Of a stretch of 57,717 bases of DNA, positions 2,642 through 13,384 are shown piece after piece (position 1 is the first letter of the stretch; each line of letters starts with the position of its first letter). The notes under the pieces are model-generated. The model was not told the DNA's origin. It did not search any database and was given only the letters and a program-made list of their open reading frames with translations. The stretch is taken from NCBI GenBank assembly GCA_002753135.1, contig PDZV01000002.1, forward strand, positions 1 to 57,717, given 5' to 3'. Source of the stretch: Magnetococcales bacterium WMHbinv6 (GTDB lineage: Bacteria; Pseudomonadota; Magnetococcia; Magnetococcales; Magnetaquicoccaceae). The position numbers and the translations under genes are program-made.

Positions 2642-4021
2642 ATGGCCGCCCCCCAATTGGACTCCCTCGCAAGTCGCGAACACCAATCCCCCTTTTATGC
2701 CGAAACCATCAGCCGATTGTTCCGGAAAAACTCCTTCACGGCCCTGCAAAAAGTGTTGTCGCGACTTTTTCCCTCCGATCTGGCACGGATTTTGGACGGC
2801 TATACCGAGGAAGAGGCAGCGAAAATTTTTTTTCTGATCCCTTCGCACCGTCTGGCCGCCAGCACCCTGAAATATATGAGTCCCGACCTGCGTAGCCATT
2901 TGATGCAGGATTATGCCCCGGAAAAACTGGTGCCAATTCTGGAAGAGTTGCCGCCCGATGATCGGGCCGACATTATCGGCCATCTGGACAGCGCTCTGGC
3001 CAAACGGTTCATGGGTGGCCTCGATGAAGAGAGCATGCGCGAAGTGGCGGAGTTGCTGCAGTATGAATCCGATACCGCCGGTGGCTTGATGACTCCAGAA
3101 TTTTTCGCCCTCTCGGTCGATACCACCGTGGGGGCCGCCATCGATGCCGTCCGCTCCCTGCCCTACTTTGAGATGGTTTTCTATCTCTACGTCCTGGATG
3201 ATAAACGTCGTCTGGTCGGGGTCAGCTCGTTGCGCCAATTGATCCTCAACGATCCGGGAAAAACTCTGGCAGAGATCATGAATCCCCGCACCATCAAGGT
3301 GCTGACCAACACCCCCAGCTCGGAAGTGGCAGAGATGGTCCGCCGTTATCGCCTGCTCGGCGTGCCGGTGGTCGATGATATGGATGTGCTGGTCGGGGTG
3401 ATCACCGTCGATGATGTGATCAGCAGCATGGACCAGGAGAGCACCGAAGATTTGATCAAAATGGCGGGCACGCCGCAGCCGGAGGTGGTCCACCAATCGT
3501 TTGCCAAAAATTTCAGCAACCGTCTGCCATGGCTGCTGCTGGCCCTGGTCGGTGCCCTGCTGACCGGTGCCGTGATTCACTTTTTCACCCCACTGCTGGA
3601 AAGCAAACTGATCCTGGCCGCCTTCATGCCCCTGGTGATGAACATGACCGGCAACATGGCCACCTCCACCGCCGCTGCCTCGGCCAAGGCCCTGGCCAAC
3701 AAGGCGATGCAGGCTGGTGCCTTTACACGCCTGTTTCTTATGGAAGCCGGTATCGGCCTGCTGTTGGGCAGCTTGAGCGGTCTGCTCGGCGGCCTTGCCA
3801 CCTGGCAACTGTTGCGCGATGCCACGCTCGGCCAGGTGGTAGGCCTAACGATTGTGATCAACTCAATGCTCGGTATTTTACTGACCCTCTTTTTCGCCAA
3901 AACTTCGGAAAAATTGCGCACCCGTCCGGAGTTTTTTTCCGGGCGCATCTCCCGACCACTGCTTGATTTGATCGGGGTTGCCATCTACTTTTCCCTGGCC
4001 AAAATGATGTTGGGGGGTTAG
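2642..4021 (+). CDS. mgtE: magnesium transporter MgtE
   Basis: A 459-residue protein of the normal MgtE length. The N-terminal half is the cytoplasmic MgtE_N superhelical domain (about residues 15-130), followed by two CBS domains (about 135-260; the second contains the phrase GVPVVDD and ends GVITVDDVI). The C-terminal half (about 285-459) has five hydrophobic helices and includes the conserved PLVMNMTGNMATST stretch that lines the Mg2+ pore. The family forms dimeric, Mg2+-gated channels in the inner membrane. A strong AAGGAGG site 7 bp upstream fixes the start. The next gene, a CorA-type transporter, begins 3 bp after the stop, so the pair is almost certainly one operon. Confidence 0.95.
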   Translation: MAAPQLDSLASREHQSPFYAETISRLFRKNSFTALQKVLSRLFPSDLARILDGYTEEEAAKIFFLIPSHRLAASTLKYMSPDLRSHLMQDYAPEKLVPILEELPPDDRADIIGHLDSALAKRFMGGLDEESMREVAELLQYESDTAGGLMTPEFFALSVDTTVGAAIDAVRSLPYFEMVFYLYVLDDKRRLVGVSSLRQLILNDPGKTLAEIMNPRTIKVLTNTPSSEVAEMVRRYRLLGVPVVDDMDVLVGVITVDDVISSMDQESTEDLIKMAGTPQPEVVHQSFAKNFSNRLPWLLLALVGALLTGAVIHFFTPLLESKLILAAFMPLVMNMTGNMATSTAAASAKALANKAMQAGAFTRLFLMEAGIGLLLGSLSGLLGGLATWQLLRDATLGQVVGLTIVINSMLGILLTLFFAKTSEKLRTRPEFFSGRISRPLLDLIGVAIYFSLAKMMLGG

Positions 4022-4024
4022 CCC

Positions 4025-5011
4025 ATGAGCAGCAATCCTTGCCCGGTTTATGCCTATTTGTTGGACGGCCTGGGGGGAGGTCGTGAAATGGGTTGGAAAG
4101 AGGTCCATGAGTGGCAGCCAAGCGACGGCATCCTCTGGCTGGTGGGTCGTCCCAGCGGTGGCGAGACACAACGCTGGCTGCGCCACGGCAGCGGCCTGCC
4201 GCAAGAGGTGTTGGAAATTATGCTCTCCACCACCAACAACCGGCCTCGTTGCATGACCTTTCGCCAAGGCACCTTGTTGTCGCTGCTCGGCATGAATCAA
4301 TCCCGACAAACGGCGGATGATGAATTGACCACCATCAGCATCTGGATCGATGCGCAACGTCTGATTGCCATGCGTTCGGCACCGACGCACAGCTTTGAGG
4401 ATATTCGTGCCAACCTGCAACCCGGCGAAGGCCCCACCCGCCCGGACGATATTCTCTCGCACGCCGTGCAACGGATTATCGCCCGCCTGGAACCTCTGGT
4501 CTTGAAGATGGGCCGCGATGTGGATGATCTGGAAGATGCCATTCTGCTCGACCCGAAAGCACAGGTACAACAGGAGCTGGTCGCCCTGCGCCATCGGCTG
4601 ATCATTCTGCGTCGGCAACTTGTGCCGCAGCATGAAGCTCTCTCCATGTTGCAACAACGGCGCGCCTGGATCAACGAAACCAACCGCCAGGTGCTGCAGG
4701 AGACGCAAGGCCGCCTGCAACATCAGATCAACGATCTGGATTCCACCCGTGAGCGTGCGGTGCTGGTACAGGATGAGATGACCAACACGCAAAACACCAA
4801 GCTCAACGAAACCATGAAGATTGTCGCCGTCTTCACCGCCTATCTCATGCCGTTGAATACCATCACCAGTCTGCTGGGCACCAATATCGAAGGGATCCCG
4901 TTCCAGGCGGGCAGCGATCATGCGTACGGCTTTACCTTGGAATTGCTGATGCTGGTTTTTGTGATGGGAGTCAGTTACAAAATTTTCAAGAAAAAGAAGT
5001 GGTTTGATTGA
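4025..5011 (+). CDS. CorA/ZntB-family divalent cation transporter
   Basis: A 328-residue protein with the CorA-family plan: a cytoplasmic alpha/beta domain, a long charged helix region (about 150-265) that forms the funnel stalk, and two C-terminal membrane helices (about 268-285 and 300-318) ending in KIFKKKKWFD. The loop between the helices reads LLGTNIEGIP. Most CorA proteins have GMN here and ZntB-like proteins have GIN followed by GGIP, so this GTN is a variant, with the following EGIP closer to ZntB. Mg2+, Zn2+ and other divalent ions are all possible substrates. It follows mgtE by 3 bp. The start at 4025 leaves little room for its own ribosome site, which suggests translational coupling. 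Confidence 0.88.
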   Translation: MSSNPCPVYAYLLDGLGGGREMGWKEVHEWQPSDGILWLVGRPSGGETQRWLRHGSGLPQEVLEIMLSTTNNRPRCMTFRQGTLLSLLGMNQSRQTADDELTTISIWIDAQRLIAMRSAPTHSFEDIRANLQPGEGPTRPDDILSHAVQRIIARLEPLVLKMGRDVDDLEDAILLDPKAQVQQELVALRHRLIILRRQLVPQHEALSMLQQRRAWINETNRQVLQETQGRLQHQINDLDSTRERAVLVQDEMTNTQNTKLNETMKIVAVFTAYLMPLNTITSLLGTNIEGIPFQAGSDHAYGFTLELLMLVFVMGVSYKIFKKKKWFD

Positions 5012-5045
5012 TTCCGTTTCTTTTTTTTCTCAAGGAGTACCGGCC

Positions 5046-5495
5046 ATGGCGGGAAGTACGGCAAGTGCGGTATCGGTCAGCAAGAACAGACTCTGGTATC
5101 ACAGCACCCTCTTCTGGGCAGTCATTGCGATCCTGTTGGTGTTGGGAGGTAACGCCTATTATGAATTTTCCGATGTGATGCTGGTCGTCAATCGGGAAGA
5201 TGGACGCGCCACCCTGCTGGCGGTGGTGGCCAAACAGGATGACTATTTTGCCCAAAACAATAAATATGCCACAACCTTGGAGGAGTTGGGCTACAGCGAG
5301 GTCAAGGATTATTCCATCGCATCGCCCAACGGCTTTTATCGCATCTGGATCAGCGAAGGGGACGGCACCTTTTATTCCCTGGCCGCCGAACCACAAGGCG
5401 AGCAAACCGGCGACAACAAATGCGCCCCCTTAACCTACGCCAGCAAAGGGCGCGCCAAAAGCGCCAAAGGGCCGAATGGGAGTGCGTGTTGGTGA
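5046..5495 (+). CDS. pilin-like globular domain on a non-pilin membrane anchor
   Basis: A 149-residue protein; CAAGGAG just upstream selects the ATG at 5046. One membrane helix lies at about residues 18-36. After it the sequence follows the body of PilE/ComP-type minor pilins: the alanine-rich helix (ATLLAVVAKQDDYFAQNNKYATTLEELGY), a Gly-Phe-Tyr strand, a YSLAAEPQGEQ strand, and a final C...LT...G.K.A.G....CW pattern whose two cysteines would close the D-loop. It lacks the prepilin-peptidase site: there is no short basic leader, no G before the cut, no F at +1 and no E at +5. It is therefore probably an anchored pilin-fold protein rather than an assembled pilin subunit. It lies 34 bp behind the CorA-type gene and ahead of a terminator, so it may be the last gene of that operon. 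Confidence 0.7.
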   Translation: MAGSTASAVSVSKNRLWYHSTLFWAVIAILLVLGGNAYYEFSDVMLVVNREDGRATLLAVVAKQDDYFAQNNKYATTLEELGYSEVKDYSIASPNGFYRIWISEGDGTFYSLAAEPQGEQTGDNKCAPLTYASKGRAKSAKGPNGSACW

Positions 5496-5506
5496 GGCTG
5501 TAAACA

Positions 5507-5554
5507 GAGAGGGGCCAGGAAACGATCTTTTTCCTGGCCTCTGGTCTGTTTTTT
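5507..5554 (+). terminator. rho-independent terminator
   Basis: A 10-bp stem, GGCCAGGAAA (5513-5522) with TTTCCTGGCC (5530-5539), a short loop, then a T run at 5549-5554. It closes the mgtE-corA-pilin-like unit and separates it from the convergent NACHT gene ending at 5567. Confidence 0.85.
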
Positions 5555-5566
5555 CAAGCAATATTT

Positions 5567-8500
5567 TTAATGCGCCTCGACACACTCCATCAGGACTGCA
5601 TACGCAACCGCATCCAACTTCAGCACTTCATTCCACACAGCCTCTTCAGTAAAGGCACCATTGTGGGCATTCATCTCTTTTTCCATAATGCGCAAAATGC
5701 TTCTTCTGTCCTCCCAATCCATGGACGTAAAGGTGGAAAGCCACGTGCTTAAAAATTTTGCTGCTGCTGTGGAGTCAATCTTGTTATTCTCAAACAGCTT
5801 GATTAGCCACGATGTAATCGTGGCAATATTTTCATGTTTTTGTTGCTCAAAATATTGACAAGACGGTTCAATCTCCTCTTCACAAAAATCTCCTTGCACC
5901 AATTTGATGAGCAGAACAGCACCGTACACAGCCCAATCATCATCCGGGACATTTTGCAACAACTCGAGAGGTATTTTATTAAAATGACTGCCTTTGAGAT
6001 AGCCAATTGCTATCACTTTTAACAAACCAGAAAATTGCGGATGCTGGATAAATTGATCGGAAAGCCATTCGACTCCATATAATTTGTTGCCAATCTCAAT
6101 TTTATGAGACAAGCAAACATTATTTATTGTCTTAATCTTATCAACTGTAACTTCATTACTGTTAATTAATGATAATATTTCCACATAAATAATGTCAATT
6201 GTTTTCGCATATAAAATAAAGTCATTTGCTGATAATCTAAATTCTGAATCAAATTCTTCATAACATACAGTGACCAATCGAAGAAACATTTTAGCATATA
6301 ATTTCTTACACTGTATTCCAATTGTGTCATCCTGTATGGTACTGAAGATTGAACCAAAACAATCAACAAAATCAACACCGCTTTTCAGATGAACCGATAG
6401 CCGTGGAGAAATTATTTCAAAATCACCGAATTTACACTCAGTAAGAGACACAAACGAACTTACTCTTTTGTCTTGTAATTTTCTCCATGATGCAATATCT
6501 CCATATTCTCCTTTGTCCACTCTGTCAGCATAACCGATTAATTCATCAGAACTCTTACAGGCGGACAAACACAATGCCAGAGGCCAGTAGCAGTATACTG
6601 ACAAACTCATTGACTGGAAGTCGCTCCAGCCAGCAGAGGCAATCTTCCGCAAGGCTGCTGACAAGAATGCTGCTGATGGATTATGTGCAAATTGTTCATT
6701 AACTAATAACGCTGTCCATGGATGATTTGGCAAATCATTCATGTTGACTTTCAATTGTTTATCTTCATTTTTATCTGGCAAATAATTTACAGCTATCGTG
6801 ACGGGAAATTTTTCAGAAATTTTGATTTCAAAATAATCATGATATTTTCCTTCTCGTTGGAACAATACATTTGAATTTGATTTATAATAATAATTATATA
6901 ATTCGCGAATTAATATAATTTTTCGATTGGCGTTCCATGTGAATTTCATATTCGGAACAAATTCATTTGCTTTATTAACAATCCAATTATTAATTGCTCT
7001 CTCATTTTTAGAAATAGAATAAATTATATCAAGTTGCTGATAGGCATCGTGTGGCCAATATTTCTCAGCAAGTTCAATTGCTCTACTTTCATTTTTACCA
7101 ATCAACAAATTGACCACAAACCATGTCCCAAGATTATCCGATGGTTTATTTTTCAAAAGATATTTACATTTGTCAATCAAACTATCAATTGCCCTGGCAT
7201 GTTGAATTTCGCTTACTCTCTTGTGAATCGGCTCAGTGGGTAGTGTCAACAACTCCAGTGTCAAATTAAAGAGTGGGTTGAAAAGACCAGGTGGACAAGT
7301 TGCAGCTATATCTTCCAGAATTTCCAAAGCCAATCGTGATCCTGGCAGGATGTGTTTTGCACACCAATTATTACTATCAATATTCATATTGGTGCAGACA
7401 CTTAAAAACAAATCAACCAAATAATTGTTTTTTTCTCTGACATGGCCTACCGCAAAAAGAAAGACATTGAGCCAATGCGCGAGAGGTGCAATATATTCAA
7501 GCCTGCTTTTTTTGTCTGATTCTGGCGCATCCATCAAACCTTCAGCCGCCATAAATTCCTGGATCGATCTGACCTCAAAGCCAATGCGCTTGTCTTCCGG
7601 TGCCACCAGCAGCACCATGCGATCTATTGCTGTATCAATAATTATTTTGCTTAATTTAGATATCTCATCTCCTTCATATCCATCTAATTGCAACATATGG
7701 TCAAGCAACTTTTTCAGATGCCTTTCATGCAGCAAAGTTGTTGTTGTTCTTGTATGTTCATTGGCTGCGTGCAAAATCAATCCGACGTGTTGGTGCAATT
7801 TGCGGACAATTTTTCTATGATCTCGCAGGACATCAGAAAAAATTGTATTTTTCTCAATCTCCCGCGCAACCATAACAAAATAATATTGGTTAAAAAGTTG
7901 CCACCGCTCTCGGGGAGGATCTCCGATATGATCCAGCAGGATGGCCATGATGGACACTTGCAACGGACTGGTCATCAGTTTGGCTGTATTATCTTGCTGC
8001 AACGCCCGTTGCAAGCGACCAAGAACTTTGTCCTGTCGGCTTTGACTCTCCTTGAAACGTGCCTTGACCAGGCGCGTTGCATAATGTTCTGCACGCACGG
8101 TGGAAAGAGGCGACAACCAGCATTCGGTAAATATTTCTTTGTCAAATTCACCGGAATAACCCTGTGGACGCGATGTGGCAACGATCATTATGTCTGCATC
8201 CAATGTCATCACACGCTGACGAAATTGGGTAATATGCTCCAGAATTTCCCTGCGATTGCTCGAAGCCGGTACTTCATCCAGACCGTCCAGAACCAATAAC
8301 CAAGGATAGACTTGCAACCAATGATGCAGATCGGATTCCGTAACAGGTATTTCACTTTTTTTACTAATCATATTTGTGAAATATTCCAGCAGCGAACTGA
8401 CTTCATTATTGCTTAATGCGTCAGCAAATCCCTTTAATTCAATGCGCACAGGAAAACGCCTGCTTTTCGGCAATGCTATGCCTTCTGACTCGCATTGACT

Positions 8501-9487
8501 GATCAATTCAAGCAATGGGCGACTGACTTCTTGTATCAATCCTCTCCTGTCCCGCAATATCAATGCACGATAAATTTGCGCAAGAAAAATTCCTACCGTG
8601 GTTTTTCCCTGACCTGGCCCACCGATCAGCAGAAAGCGTCCTTGCTCTTGATTTTGCCCTGGTAACAAAAGGTTGTGCAGAGAGGGCTTCAAACGTTCAT
8701 TGCCTGCGGTCAATAAGTGATGAATGATGCCCGGTGCAAGGCGTCCATTTGCAGAATCTGCTTTTTCAGGTACTTCATTGCTTCGTTCAGGGGTTGCCGC
8801 CAAATCGACAAACACTTTGGATAATGGTGTATCTTTTTCTTCTGTATGGCCGGCCTGAGTGAGATTGGCATACTGGTCATGACGCAATTCTCTCTGCAGA
8901 TACTGGTCCATAACCTGTTCAAAATTGGCTGATAAACCTTTTGATAATTCGTTAAGATACCGCACCAGCTCTGCCAGCACATCCCCTGGGGTTATCCAGG
9001 CGGCGTAAGCTGTTCTGATTGCAAGCTGAGTGTCAAGCAGACGTGCCAGCTTATCATAATCCCAGACATCATAACCTTTTAAGTTTAACCCGGAATTTTT
9101 CAAACTCTCCAGAGCCTTCTTTTTACCACCTTCCGGCACGCCACTTAACGGCACGTTGGTTACATACAAATAGTATTCCGGTACAGTGCGCTTGCTGCCT
9201 GGTTCGGTATATTTTTTGAGTTCGTTGCGCAACTGTTGCAAGGCCCACTTTTGATCTTCCTTATCGGAATCGGAGCGTTGGCGGAATTTTGCTTGAATCA
9301 CGCCATCGCCATCCCATGGCCGACCTTGGTCAGGGTAGTCAACTCTCCCTTGAAACGTGGCATCACTTCCACCATCGGGACCATCGCCAAATGGCCGCAC
9401 TTTATTGCCAAGGGTGGCGATGCAGAGTGCTTGGACCAACTGTTGAAATGATCGGGGGGATAAACCGTTCAGGTTATAGTCGGTCAT
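5567..9487 (-). CDS. restriction-endonuclease/NACHT STAND ATPase, probable antiphage protein
   Basis: A 1306-residue protein with three parts. Residues about 1-150 form an Mrr/PD-(D/E)xK-type nuclease domain with GPDGGSDATF (D42) and VIQAKF (Q65, K67). Residues about 280-560 are a NACHT NTPase: Walker A GGPGQGKTT at 289-297, Walker B LLVLDGLDEVP ending near 407, and the sensor-like TSRPQGY near 438-444. The last 700 or so residues are helical with no motif I recognise and would be the sensor region. Bacterial NACHT and Avs proteins of this build defend against phage by recognising a phage product and then activating the nuclease. No partner gene is needed and none is seen. The C-terminal half is strikingly AT-rich compared with the N-terminal half. 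The gene lies between a terminator and a broken Rpn gene, behind dnaN. Confidence 0.85.
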   Translation of the reverse strand: MTDYNLNGLSPRSFQQLVQALCIATLGNKVRPFGDGPDGGSDATFQGRVDYPDQGRPWDGDGVIQAKFRQRSDSDKEDQKWALQQLRNELKKYTEPGSKRTVPEYYLYVTNVPLSGVPEGGKKKALESLKNSGLNLKGYDVWDYDKLARLLDTQLAIRTAYAAWITPGDVLAELVRYLNELSKGLSANFEQVMDQYLQRELRHDQYANLTQAGHTEEKDTPLSKVFVDLAATPERSNEVPEKADSANGRLAPGIIHHLLTAGNERLKPSLHNLLLPGQNQEQGRFLLIGGPGQGKTTVGIFLAQIYRALILRDRRGLIQEVSRPLLELISQCESEGIALPKSRRFPVRIELKGFADALSNNEVSSLLEYFTNMISKKSEIPVTESDLHHWLQVYPWLLVLDGLDEVPASSNRREILEHITQFRQRVMTLDADIMIVATSRPQGYSGEFDKEIFTECWLSPLSTVRAEHYATRLVKARFKESQSRQDKVLGRLQRALQQDNTAKLMTSPLQVSIMAILLDHIGDPPRERWQLFNQYYFVMVAREIEKNTIFSDVLRDHRKIVRKLHQHVGLILHAANEHTRTTTTLLHERHLKKLLDHMLQLDGYEGDEISKLSKIIIDTAIDRMVLLVAPEDKRIGFEVRSIQEFMAAEGLMDAPESDKKSRLEYIAPLAHWLNVFLFAVGHVREKNNYLVDLFLSVCTNMNIDSNNWCAKHILPGSRLALEILEDIAATCPPGLFNPLFNLTLELLTLPTEPIHKRVSEIQHARAIDSLIDKCKYLLKNKPSDNLGTWFVVNLLIGKNESRAIELAEKYWPHDAYQQLDIIYSISKNERAINNWIVNKANEFVPNMKFTWNANRKIILIRELYNYYYKSNSNVLFQREGKYHDYFEIKISEKFPVTIAVNYLPDKNEDKQLKVNMNDLPNHPWTALLVNEQFAHNPSAAFLSAALRKIASAGWSDFQSMSLSVYCYWPLALCLSACKSSDELIGYADRVDKGEYGDIASWRKLQDKRVSSFVSLTECKFGDFEIISPRLSVHLKSGVDFVDCFGSIFSTIQDDTIGIQCKKLYAKMFLRLVTVCYEEFDSEFRLSANDFILYAKTIDIIYVEILSLINSNEVTVDKIKTINNVCLSHKIEIGNKLYGVEWLSDQFIQHPQFSGLLKVIAIGYLKGSHFNKIPLELLQNVPDDDWAVYGAVLLIKLVQGDFCEEEIEPSCQYFEQQKHENIATITSWLIKLFENNKIDSTAAAKFLSTWLSTFTSMDWEDRRSILRIMEKEMNAHNGAFTEEAVWNEVLKLDAVAYAVLMECVEAH

Positions 9488-9654: not shown

Positions 9655-10555
9655 TTATTGAGGAATGACTTCGCACAACAAGGAGGCATCCAACACCCGA
9701 TCACTCCACTCTTCAAGTTGGGCAATGTCGGCGGACAATACGGTACTTTCAATCGATTCTGGCAGCGTGCCGAACCGGTGGCGCAGCTGGCGCAGTAGCA
9801 AGGCGGCACGACCTTTTTGTTCTCCCTGTTGTGCAGCCCGTTGTTCACCAATGGCGATACCGGCCTGAATTCCACGCTGCTCAATCTCCTGCGCCCATTT
9901 TTCCACATATCTTTCCAACATGACTACCACCTCCTCCAACTCTTCCGGAATCGGCATCGTTGTCTCTATGCCAGATCGCTTGTGTAAACCGGCTACCAGC
10001 AATTCACGAAATAGCGGTTTCAAATCGTTTGACGCCGGATGTGCCTGAAACCAGCCAACCAATTCCCGACTGGCCTCTATCAATGTTTCCGGTTGCAACG
10101 GATGCCCCATACGGAAAAATATCGCCAATAAGGAATCAAGAGAATCACTTTTCTTGATGCTGGATCGCACCTCTTCCAGTACATGATAACGCATCTGCGG
10201 CTGGTATTTCCACAATGGTGATTCCGGTGGCAGGTGGATTAAATCCCGCATTGCTACTGGTGCACTCCAAACAGACTCACCATTGTAAATCACAATCGGT
10301 AACACCGGAGGCAAACCATCTGTCACACGCCATTGACGTTCATCCACCAACTGCTGGTACAACAGACCGGTATACACATCGATCCGCAACACCATCCAGG
10401 GATCAACTTCTGACTGAAACTCTAATAAAATCAGGATAAAGGCTACGGGTGACATCCAACAGCGCAGCGATGGCTGGATCCAGATAATGCTCCAATAAAT
10501 CGGCAATAATCTCTGGTCGAGAAAAAAGCCGATGATAGATTGCATCATCTGTCAT
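9655..10555 (-). pseudogene. broken Rpn-family recombination-promoting nuclease/putative transposase
   Basis: The long frame (from about 10460 down to 9655) matches the body of Rpn/PD-(D/E)XK transposase-like proteins: LILLEFQSEVDPWMVLRI, VYTGLLYQQL, LPPVLPIVIYNGE, and a C-terminal coiled region with GIQAGIAIGEQRAAQQGEQKG. A second frame starting at 10555 supplies the missing N-terminus, MTDDAIYHRLFSRPEIIADL, which is how intact family members begin. The two frames do not join: near 10440-10460 the reading frame changes and roughly 40 residues that normally carry part of the catalytic core are absent. The gene is therefore an internal deletion with a frameshift. A GAGAGG ribosome site precedes 10555, and dnaN ends 21 bp upstream. 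The longer open frame may still be translated from an internal start. Confidence 0.8.
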
Positions 10556-10576: not shown

Positions 10577-11701
10577 CTACACCCGCATCGGCATCAACAC
10601 AAACTGCGTTCCCAGCTGGTACGGATCGGTCAACAAGACGGGCAGCTCCTCATTGTTCAACAGAAAACTGACTATCTCTCCCTCCATCACCGACAAAAAT
10701 TCGCGCAGGTAGCGGGCGCTGAAGCCGACCATCAGGACATCGCCGCCTTCCAGCTTTACCTGCATCTCCTCTTCCGCCTCTCCCTGTTCGGGATTGTTGC
10801 TGTTGAAACGCATGGTGTCGCCGGCAATCTCCAGACGGATGCCATGCGATTTTTCGTTCGACAACACCGAAACGCGACGCACAATGCCTAACAACACCTC
10901 CCGTTCCACATCCAGTCGCATCGGCTGATTGCGCGGAATCACCTGGCGATAGTCCGGATAACGCCCCTCCACCAGCTTGGCCACCATCATCACCTCTGGA
11001 CGCAGCAGCTGAATAAAATTGTCGTCCAGAATCATCTCCAAGGCATCGTCGCTCTCATCGAGCAGACGGCGAATTTCATGCACCGCCTTCTTGGGAATAA
11101 TCACCTCCCGCTCCTCAGACGGCAGCCCCTCCATCTCCCGATCAACCGAAGCCAAACGGTGACTGTCGGTCGCCACCACCCGAATATGACCACAGCCCCC
11201 CTCCGGGTCGGGTACGACATGAAACAAAACGCCATTCAAGGTATATCGGGTCACATCGTCCGACATGGCAAAATGGGTCTTGGCCAACATTTCCCGCAAA
11301 ACCGGTACCGCTACCGCAAAACGGTAAGGCCCCTCTGCCTGCGGAATCTTGGGAAATTGATCGGCTGGCAGGGTCGCCACCTCAAATTTGGCCCGACCGC
11401 TGGTAATCCGCATCCGACCGCGCGCATCAACCCGCAGCAACAGCTCTGCCCCCGCCGGTAGTTCGTTGACCACATCATACAGGGTGCGCGCATTGACCGT
11501 GATCACCCCGCCCTCGATCACCTCCGCCGGACAATAGGTGCGGACCGAAACCACCAAATCGGTTCCCTCCAGCCGCACCCGCCCCTCTTCGCTCTGCAAG
11601 AGCAGGTTGCGCACAATCGGCGTCATGTGTACCCGGTCCACCACCGTATGTACCCGTGACAACGCCTTGAAAAACGCATCACGAGTCAGTTGCAATTCCA
11701 T
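10577..11701 (-). CDS. dnaN: DNA polymerase III beta clamp
   Basis: A 374-residue protein of standard length for the sliding clamp. It begins MELQLTRDAFFKALSRVHTVVDR and ends VLMPMRV, the conserved C-terminal peptide of DnaN that contributes to the partner-binding pocket. Three repeated clamp domains are evident, with FHVV...IRVVATDSHRLA in the middle domain and GFSARYLREFL in the third. It clamps the replicative polymerase to DNA. It follows dnaA by 38 bp on the same strand. The usual next genes, recF and gyrB, are missing; the broken Rpn gene stands there instead. Confidence 0.97.
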   Translation of the reverse strand: MELQLTRDAFFKALSRVHTVVDRVHMTPIVRNLLLQSEEGRVRLEGTDLVVSVRTYCPAEVIEGGVITVNARTLYDVVNELPAGAELLLRVDARGRMRITSGRAKFEVATLPADQFPKIPQAEGPYRFAVAVPVLREMLAKTHFAMSDDVTRYTLNGVLFHVVPDPEGGCGHIRVVATDSHRLASVDREMEGLPSEEREVIIPKKAVHEIRRLLDESDDALEMILDDNFIQLLRPEVMMVAKLVEGRYPDYRQVIPRNQPMRLDVEREVLLGIVRRVSVLSNEKSHGIRLEIAGDTMRFNSNNPEQGEAEEEMQVKLEGGDVLMVGFSARYLREFLSVMEGEIVSFLLNNEELPVLLTDPYQLGTQFVLMPMRV

Positions 11702-11739
11702 GTCTCTTTATCTCTCTTTTCTGATGGTTTCATCACACT

Positions 11740-13080
11740 TCAGCTTTGCAACATGGCTGTCAGCGTCCGCAACTCTCCTGCCAAATCGGCATCCACGATC
11801 TGTTGCTCTTCAATTTTGCGCACCGCATGCATCACCGTCGTATGGTCCCGATCACCGAACTGCTTGCCGACTTCGGGAAATGAGTGCTTGGTCAACTGTT
11901 TGCACAAATACATGGCAATCTGCCGCGGATGACTGAACTGGCGCGCCCGTTTTGACGACCGCAAATCCAATACACGGATCTGATAATACTCCGCCACCTT
12001 TTTTTGAATCTCCTCCACCGTCACCTGACGACGATCCACCGGACGCACAATATGGCGCAACGATTCCACCACCAACCCCATCGTCACCGGCACCTTGTCC
12101 ATGGAGGCCATGGCCAAAACACGAATCAAGGCCCCTTCCAACTCCCGAATATTGCTCTGGATCGCATCGGCGAGAAAAAAGGCCACATCGTCCAGCAACT
12201 CGATCCCCTCCACCGCCGCCTTTTTTTTCAAAATGGCCACACGGGTCTCCAAGTCCGGCAGCTGAATGTCGGCGAGCAAACCCCAATTGAAACGGGATCG
12301 TAAACGCTCTTCCAAAAATTCCATCTGCGACGGAAGATGGTCCGATGAAAGAACAATCTGTCGGTTGCTCTCATACAACGCATTGAAGGTATGAAAAAAC
12401 TCCTCCTGGGTCGATTTTTTGCCCGCAATGAACTGAATATCATCCACCAGCAGCACATCAATGGAACGAAACAACTCTTTGAAATCATGGACCCGCTGAA
12501 ACCGTAACGACTCGATCATCTGGGTCATAAATTTTTCGGAAGAGATATACTGCACCTTGAGTGCCGGGCGATGGGCAAGCAGATGGTTGCCGATGGCATG
12601 CAGCAGATGGGTCTTGCCTAAACCGACACCGCCATGAATAAACAGCGGGTTATAAATTTTGGCCGGCTCTTCGGCCACCCGCGCCGCTGCCGCATGGGCA
12701 AATTGATTGCAACCGCCCACCACAAACGAATCAAAGGTGTAACGTGGATCCAAACCGCTCCGCCCGACAGCGACGGTTGCCGGGGGAGCCACCGTTGCCT
12801 CTGCCACCACAACCGGCGGCGGAACCCCTTCCGTTGCCTGCGGATCAACCCGAATCACCACCCGAATGGAGCGTGCTACCTGCTGCGATAACACCGCTTC
12901 CAGCAACGAACCATAATGGCTGCGCACATAATCCGCTGCCAGACCACTGGGGCTTAACAACTCCACACACCCTTCGGTCAGCTCGGTGCCAAGACACAAG
13001 GGCTTGAACCACATGTTATAGACCTGTGGCGTCACCTCTCCCTGGATGGCGGCCAGGGTGGCTGACCAATGCTCTTTCAT
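11740..13080 (-). CDS. dnaA: chromosomal replication initiator DnaA
   Basis: A 446-residue protein when started at MKEHWSATLAAIQG, which fits DnaA domain I; a Met nine residues earlier at 13107 would overlap the PilZ stop. The AAA+ domain carries Walker A GGVGLGKTHLLHAIGNH, Walker B VLLVDDIQFIAGK and sensor I VLSSDHLPS. The C-terminal domain IV has the DnaA-box signature GDRDHTTVMHAVRKIE. A Val/Ala/Pro-rich linker (about 95-130) separates domain I from the ATPase. It binds the origin and melts it for replication. The gene lies 16 bp behind a PilZ gene and ahead of dnaN. I found no cluster of DnaA boxes near it, so the origin may lie elsewhere. Confidence 0.96.
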   Translation of the reverse strand: MKEHWSATLAAIQGEVTPQVYNMWFKPLCLGTELTEGCVELLSPSGLAADYVRSHYGSLLEAVLSQQVARSIRVVIRVDPQATEGVPPPVVVAEATVAPPATVAVGRSGLDPRYTFDSFVVGGCNQFAHAAAARVAEEPAKIYNPLFIHGGVGLGKTHLLHAIGNHLLAHRPALKVQYISSEKFMTQMIESLRFQRVHDFKELFRSIDVLLVDDIQFIAGKKSTQEEFFHTFNALYESNRQIVLSSDHLPSQMEFLEERLRSRFNWGLLADIQLPDLETRVAILKKKAAVEGIELLDDVAFFLADAIQSNIRELEGALIRVLAMASMDKVPVTMGLVVESLRHIVRPVDRRQVTVEEIQKKVAEYYQIRVLDLRSSKRARQFSHPRQIAMYLCKQLTKHSFPEVGKQFGDRDHTTVMHAVRKIEEQQIVDADLAGELRTLTAMLQS

Positions 13081-13096
13081 CACCACCAGACGCCGA

Positions 13097-13384
13097 TCAG
13101 GATCCATCTGTACGCTGCAGACGCAAACCAATCTGGTTTTCACTCTGGTGCGCGACCAGACAAGAAAAACGGGAGTCTCGCCCATACAGACTGATGGCAA
13201 TCTCCACCAGGGTATCCCGTTGCAGAACCAGTTCCAGATCCTCGTCGGCAACAAACAACATACCCCCCAGGTTCATGTTGCCCAACTGCCCCCGAATGCA
13301 CCGCCCATCGGCCAACATCATCGTGGCTGGATCATGGCTCAATACCCGATCTTCCCGTCGATCCGCCTTGTTTTCCTCGATCAC
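13097..13384 (-). CDS. PilZ-domain protein, candidate c-di-GMP receptor
   Basis: A 95-residue single-domain protein started at a GTG with an excellent CAGGAGGTAATCAG ribosome site. It shows the PilZ pair of motifs: RREDR (R9xxxR13) near the start and GNMNLGGMLF, which stands for the (D/N)xSxxG motif with Asn in the Ser position. A final strand reads IGLRLQR. PilZ domains bind c-di-GMP through these motifs; the Ser-to-Asn change makes binding likely but not certain. It sits directly upstream of dnaA on the same strand with a 16-bp gap, so the two are probably co-transcribed. This is an uncommon neighbour for a replication initiator. Confidence 0.75.
   Translation of the reverse strand: MIEENKADRREDRVLSHDPATMMLADGRCIRGQLGNMNLGGMLFVADEDLELVLQRDTLVEIAISLYGRDSRFSCLVAHQSENQIGLRLQRTDGS

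Follow-up and report, generated by a model that had tools for sequence, protein, structure and literature searches.

The window, namely the whole stretch of 57,717 nucleotides that was analysed (contig PDZV01000002.1 of Magnetococcales bacterium WMHbinv6, positions 1 to 57,717 of the forward strand), carries three consecutive genes read from the same strand. The first of them, mgtE (2642..4021, +), encodes an MgtE-type Mg2+/divalent cation transporter, assigned with Pfam and NCBIfam, and is presumed to be the first gene of an operon. It is followed after 3 nt by corA (4025..5011, +), encoding a CorA-superfamily transporter of the CmaX/ZntB-like type, which was assigned with Pfam and PDB sequences. 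The third gene (5046..5495, +) starts with an ATG placed 34 nt past the end of corA and encodes a 149-aa protein designated PilL, a name used only here. An AAGGAG ribosome-binding site (5032..5037, +) was recognised in the sequence at a spacing of 8 nt from this ATG, and a terminator-like hairpin of 13 pairs with a T-rich tail was found 3′ of the PilL gene (5510..5542, +), which is suggestive only, four terminator-like sites being found in the region against 4.2 expected in shuffles. The genes mgtE, corA and PilL share one strand, are separated by gaps of 3 and 34 nt, and are most simply read as a three-gene operon, in which PilL would be the last gene.

The MgtE of the window contains MgtE_N, CBS and MgtE domains in Pfam and reached 292 bits with NCBIfam TIGR00400, the cut-off of which is 232.75. 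The CorA protein scored 179 bits with the Pfam CorA model, and its closest PDB sequences were CmaX (7nh9, E 9e-42) and ZntB (5n9y, E 7e-30). It is thus closest to CmaX/ZntB and yet scores under the NCBIfam ZntB and CorA cut-offs, so that these matches point to no single transported ion. GTN was present in all 17 CorA proteins compared, at the place where CorA carries GMN.

On the other strand, a 1306-aa protein is encoded at 5567-9487 (-). Its N-terminus weakly resembles Mrr, and NACHT and NPHP3 were matched weakly too, none of these matches reaching the Pfam cut-offs; in PADLOC, the N-terminus matched PDC-S73 (E 1e-5) and, at E 7e-7, a model for an Argonaute-associated REase, and the product is possibly a NACHT-type defence protein. 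It is followed by a YhgA-like putative transposase (Transposase_31) with DUF4351 (9655-10548, -), and by dnaN and dnaA (10577-13254, -), which lie a few kb from the mgtE-corA-PilL operon. The nearest named relatives of PilL are those of 'Ca. Magnetaquicoccus inordinatus' UR-1 and of a Magnetococcales MAG, on which grounds the window is assigned to the magnetotactic-coccus group, and in the UR-1 contig (L004) mgtE-corA-PilL is placed between recF and dnaN, so near replication-initiation genes as well.

PilL may be divided into an N-terminal tail (residues 1-15, 5046..5090, +), presumed to be cytoplasmic and devoid of a leader ending with G/A at the helix, the membrane part of a long helix (residues ~16-39, 5091..5162, +), and a pilin head of the PilE/ComP type (residues 44-149, 5175..5492, +) that includes C126, C148 and the final CW. 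When the long helix was aligned with pilin alpha-1N, W17, L22 and Y39 fell at the pilin positions -1, +5 and +22, respectively. The sequence-only reading had likened the globular part to minor pilins down to the final CW, and this likeness was borne out by both profile searches and structure prediction. Pfam ComP_DUS (PF16732) matched residues 44-130 (E 9e-13, 49.3 bits, cut-off 27.3), and its gathering score of 27.3 was exceeded by all 12 PilL orthologues described below, with 34.2-60 bits when whole open frames were scanned. A profile built from the 12 PilL sequences retrieved P. aeruginosa PilE (PDB 4noa) with E 4.6e-16, in an alignment extending through the terminal CW. AlphaFold2 models, built from the 12 PilL sequences alone, predicted for the window protein one long helix (residues 12-71) plus a small sheet, with a mean pLDDT of 75 and a poor model over the last nine residues, and for the distant member L012 a long helix (residues 2-62) plus a small sheet, with a pLDDT of 77. 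PilE 4noa was the top PDB match of both models (Foldseek 7.6e-6 and 1.9e-5), and the window model was superposed on it with a Z of 12.2 and an rmsd of 2.6 over 100 residues. The predicted structure of PilL presents the lollipop fold, with a long alpha-1 and a beta-sheet head, and C126 and C148 could pair in it as in pilins. Another contig of the same genome encodes a regular ComP_DUS prepilin with an N_methyl match (L002:1306-1758, -), adjoining a large ORF that is PilY1-like by eye.

As to the anchor, the absence of the prepilin peptidase motif, already noticed in the sequence-only reading, was confirmed for the window protein, which has no G or A among residues 9-24 and gave no match to Pfam N_methyl over its whole open frame. 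An upstream start that would restore a leader was ruled out: the frame is open upstream only as far as 4965, within corA, where nothing prepilin-like is gained, and a TTG at 5004, taken as an alternative start, adds no leader.

The anchor was then compared between the 12 PilL orthologues and 72 other relatives with a pilin domain. The latter comprised 48 pilins outside the class Magnetococcia (eight loci plus 40 taken mostly, not strictly, by score, lower-scoring matches being left out) and 24 further proteins with a pilin domain from within the class, of which 25 were listed and one, L016, was dropped for having no open-frame match at E <= 1e-3. A strict class III pattern was defined as G or A, a hydrophobic residue, three uncharged residues, E or D, and then 15 uncharged residues; Asp at position 5 was accepted, as in L155. 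This pattern was found in none of the 12 PilL proteins versus 71 of the 72 relatives, that is, 48/48 outside the class and 23/24 within it, the sole miss being L015, which is cut off by a contig end and was omitted from the column counts, leaving 71 true pilins there. Likewise, Pfam N_methyl matched 0/12 PilL and 10/10 control pilins. These scans of the 12, as well as that with ComP_DUS and the Glu5-free scan described below, used whole open frames.

Two column differences accompany the loss of the signal. Position 22, counted from the cleavage site, is Y or W in all 12 PilL versus P in 70/71 true pilins, and it lies outside the pattern by which the true pilins were selected. Position 5 is M, L, I, T or F in all 12, versus 70 E and one D among the 71 true pilins; these were chosen by a pattern demanding E/D at that position, and the informative figure is the 71/72 relatives meeting the pattern. 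The alignment register is fixed, because the aromatic residue at position 24 is retained in 12/12 PilL and R50 is invariant in PilL and true pilins alike; a 7-residue insertion between aromatic 24 and R50 was found in five members (those of genus g2 and of G034/G035). Of the rows L056, L057 and L058 in the alignments used (A2 and A3), not every one starts with the initiation codon. For the three members from genus g2, translation most likely begins at the first helix turn, which would leave no leader.

Scans of lower stringency delimited what may remain of a cleavage site. A looser first scan, which also permitted S at -1, matched 2/12 PilL (L005 and L057, both in polar stretches ahead of the helix), 47/48 of the other pilins and 23/24 of the class pilins. 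A Glu5-free scan, requiring G/A and then 18 uncharged residues with position 5 free, matched 7/12 PilL open frames, and 4/12 when a hydrophobic residue was demanded at +1, while both variants matched 71/72 of the other relatives (48/48 outside the class and 23/24 in it). Among the four PilL matches with a hydrophobic +1, those of L011 and L012 precede the predicted start, that of L056 falls in a polar stretch overlapping corA, and only that of L006 (G|MFW) lies within the predicted protein, where it adjoins the helix. L007, L008 and L057 carry G|S directly ahead of the helix, and no Glu5-free cleavage site was found in the window protein, L005, L009, L010 or L058. Judged by these scans, some PilL orthologues may still be cleaved in the absence of Glu5, whereas the window protein would not be; its cleavage site is clearly lost, and loss of Glu5 and Pro22 is, by the alignment, common to all 12.

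The membrane topology is less readily deduced. The net charge of the N-terminal tail was 0 or below in 9/12 PilL rows, L056 entering this count without its true N-terminus, and three rows were +2 just past the helix, so that charge does not clearly predict an N-in topology. Cleavage by signal peptidase I where the helix ends (G-N-A37) is conceivable.

PilL orthologues were found in 12 of the 48 genomes examined from the class, with scores of 195-244 bits, the next best class protein reaching 57. In 398 genomes sampled from the phylum (the 48 class genomes and 350 others), of which at most nine candidates per genome were scored and a copy may have been missed, no PilL was found outside the class, the best outside match having 90 bits. 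A contig search with the window PilL alone, which reaches close relatives only, returned two loci, both from Magnetococcales; no match was found in plasmids, nor in viral predicted structures at E <= 0.001. The 12 proteins formed one clade with an SH-aLRT of 98 in a quick tree of 83 sequences, their frames are open in all 12 genomes, the matched region being free of stops, and dN/dS was 0.11 and 0.13 versus the two nearest orthologues, at a dS of about 1.4. Some residues set the family apart from true pilins: E115 occurs in 11/12 PilL versus 0/66 true pilins and Y39 in 11/12 versus 0/71, while D88, D106 and Q117, each present in 12/12 PilL, are found in 13/53, 15/67 and 17/62 true pilins, respectively. 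On these comparisons, PilL is a maintained family and not a lone oddity or a decayed pilin. The suggestion that it is pilin-derived is supported by the 12 orthologues forming one clade in which the pilin head is retained with an altered anchor.

The sequence-only reading had linked this protein with metal-ion transporter genes rather than with pilus genes, and had called for homologues with the same anchor and neighbours; both points held throughout the family, for the 12 orthologues lacking the strict signal all adjoin at least one of mgtE and a CmaX/ZntB-like corA, the genes being arranged in two orders. PilL directly follows corA in 9/12 and directly precedes mgtE in 3/12, the latter being the genus-g2 members, in which one corA comes after mgtE and a second, divergent corA lies on the other side. 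At these loci (L059, L060 and L061) several CorA and MgtE genes surround PilL, and the PilL-adjacent MgtE has two MgtE_N stretches, as found with Pfam for L061 and with tblastn for the other two. With the PilL starts chosen, the corA stop and the PilL start are 1 nt apart in two genomes. In G006, the linkage rests on a corA tail only, the PilL contig carrying just the last 32 corA residues, and mgtE and the rest of corA end another contig. Downstream of PilL in G006 (L062:196-2926) there is a 426-aa ORF that is NRAMP-like by eye, followed by a protein with MgtE_N and CBS matches in which no MgtE membrane-domain match was found. dnaA/dnaN or recF was found near the operon in G000-G002 and at none of the other loci in the stretches examined; the neighbourhood common to all is, therefore, that of the transporters.

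The reverse relation is looser. The mgtE-corA pair is present in all 12 PilL genomes and in six others, chosen by the next most similar CorA (E 1e-79 or better), in which PilL is absent both near the pair and genome-wide, two of the six being just 77-78% complete. The mgtE-neighbour check covered these more similar CorA genes and, among the more distant ones, the second corA of G005. When PilL presence is mapped on a tree of the 18 CorA proteins, at least three changes are required, and no difference between CorA proteins with and without PilL was found in the last 75 residues, pore loop included, among 17 proteins. Since six genomes hold the pair without PilL, PilL is not essential to it.

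A former minor pilin of the PilE/ComP type may have turned into a protein held permanently in the inner membrane by a single pass, which would serve the MgtE/CorA pair as an accessory subunit; to this reading we assign slightly less than an even chance. The helix would insert PilL into the membrane in such a way that the head faces the periplasm, and the window protein would stay uncut and membrane-bound, because it has no prepilin peptidase site. It would be unable to enter filaments, since Glu5, Pro22 and a freed N-terminus are all absent. As a less certain step, the helix would pack against a transporter and the head would be placed over the periplasmic mouth, modulating or sensing divalent-cation uptake. 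The fuller version, in which a pilin was exapted as a dedicated non-filament subunit of CorA/MgtE, with the helix turned into a permanent anchor and the head into a periplasmic gate or sensor, is put forward tentatively, as a plausible outcome with somewhat poorer prospects. The altered anchor and the transporter linkage are read directly from the sequences; the role with the MgtE-CorA pair we infer from the operon position, that is, from linkage alone, and linkage of genes can reflect shared regulation only. Over the receptor or scaffold role suggested in the sequence-only reading, which none of the results demonstrates, we prefer the accessory-subunit reading for the genetic linkage and for the residues that are conserved in PilL and rare or absent in true pilins. 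Against it count the unclear N-in charge, the alike CorA pore regions, the absence of PilL from six genomes with the pair, the Glu5-free sites of some orthologues and the conceivable signal peptidase I cleavage.

The same conserved residues may be read in another way, in which PilL is a periplasm-facing sensor or ligand binder for metal or envelope stress, co-transcribed with the transporters and not bound to them. All 12 proteins share D88 and D106, and E115 is family-specific. Moreover, in the part of the source consulted, the P. aeruginosa gene for CmaX, to which the window CorA is closest among solved structures, is controlled by envelope-stress sigma factors together with genes for a mechanosensitive channel and a hypothetical protein (PMC7641640). 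However, the order of the strands suggests that E115 lies at one end of the sheet and D88/D106 at the other, and this role is regarded as doubtful, if worth keeping in mind. A role in pilus or DNA-uptake biology, with PilL as a membrane-retained decoy, a regulator or a ComP-like receptor and the metal genes as mere co-transcribed neighbours, is considered unlikely: the head belongs to the ComP_DUS family and the genome possesses a prepilin peptidase-domain gene (Peptidase_A24) besides its ComP_DUS prepilin, yet corA and/or mgtE stand beside every orthologue in two gene orders, and Glu5 and Pro22 are lost in all of them.

It is also very improbable that PilL is a divergent prepilin, still cleaved in the absence of Glu5 and serving as a minor or tip pilus subunit. 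Glu5 can be absent from tip pilins, according to the portion of the literature accessed (PMC10191384), and the sites of L006, L007, L008 and L057 directly ahead of the helix would suit such processing; against this, the window protein and four further orthologues have no such G/A, no residues precede the helix in the three members from genus g2, provided that their likeliest start is right, N_methyl matches none of the 12, and Pro22 has been lost too. A decaying or misassembled pilin gene, to which the lost signal is the sole pointer, is scarcely credible given the conserved neighbourhood, and decay was ruled out by the 12 intact frames together with the dN/dS of 0.11-0.13 versus the nearest two.

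If the accessory-subunit reading is true, a pilin fold would be in use outside pili, secretion and DNA uptake, and, if the transporter link is functional, PilL would represent a new accessory protein for MgtE/CorA-type uptake systems. The usual marks of type IV pilins are the signal and the capacity for assembly; the dozen PilL orthologues form a series, provided by nature, that has lost the docking (Glu5) and melting (Pro22) residues and the canonical signal while the head is kept under selection. In the parts of the sources consulted, Glu5 is described as serving subunit docking, Gly14/Pro22 as possibly letting the helix melt during assembly (PMC5059446), and the prepilin leader as always ending in Gly or Ala, Glu5 being frequent and not universal (PMC10191384). 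On the features tested, the window PilL fails membership of the type IV pilins except for its fold. No pilin-head protein associated with metal transporters or lacking prepilin processing was named in the titles and abstract beginnings of the open-licence PMC articles retrieved, and the words pili, pilus, pilin, CorA, MgtE and magnesium are all absent from the main text of the paper on the UR-1 genome (PMC6783814). The head family is already known, and the converted anchor with its metal-transport neighbourhood would be a variant not found in the open-licence PMC literature, as far as those titles and abstract beginnings reach.

Among known systems, P. aeruginosa PilE (4noa) and the ComP_DUS family share with PilL the head fold, the cysteine pair, the final CW and the long alpha-1, whereas the ComP_DUS relatives bear the class III signal (71/72) and Pro22 (70/71), and PilL has neither and sits with metal transporters. 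The type IV pilin-like G and H proteins (PF16734) gave a weak match in 4/12 PilL (best E 3.7e-5), under the cut-off in the members shown, and ComP_DUS fits PilL better. On the transporter side, the cmaX-cfrX-cmpX operon of P. aeruginosa resembles the window locus in that a CorA relative, CmaX, is encoded with a hypothetical protein; its partners, however, are CfrX and an MscS-like channel, and no partner with a pilin head is mentioned in the part of the article seen (PMC7641640). CpaL of Caulobacter crescentus, as described in the excerpt consulted, is similar to PilL in presenting a pilin-like module within a specialised protein, and differs from it in a potential prepilin peptidase site, a vWA domain and a predicted place at the pilus tip (PMC12607857).
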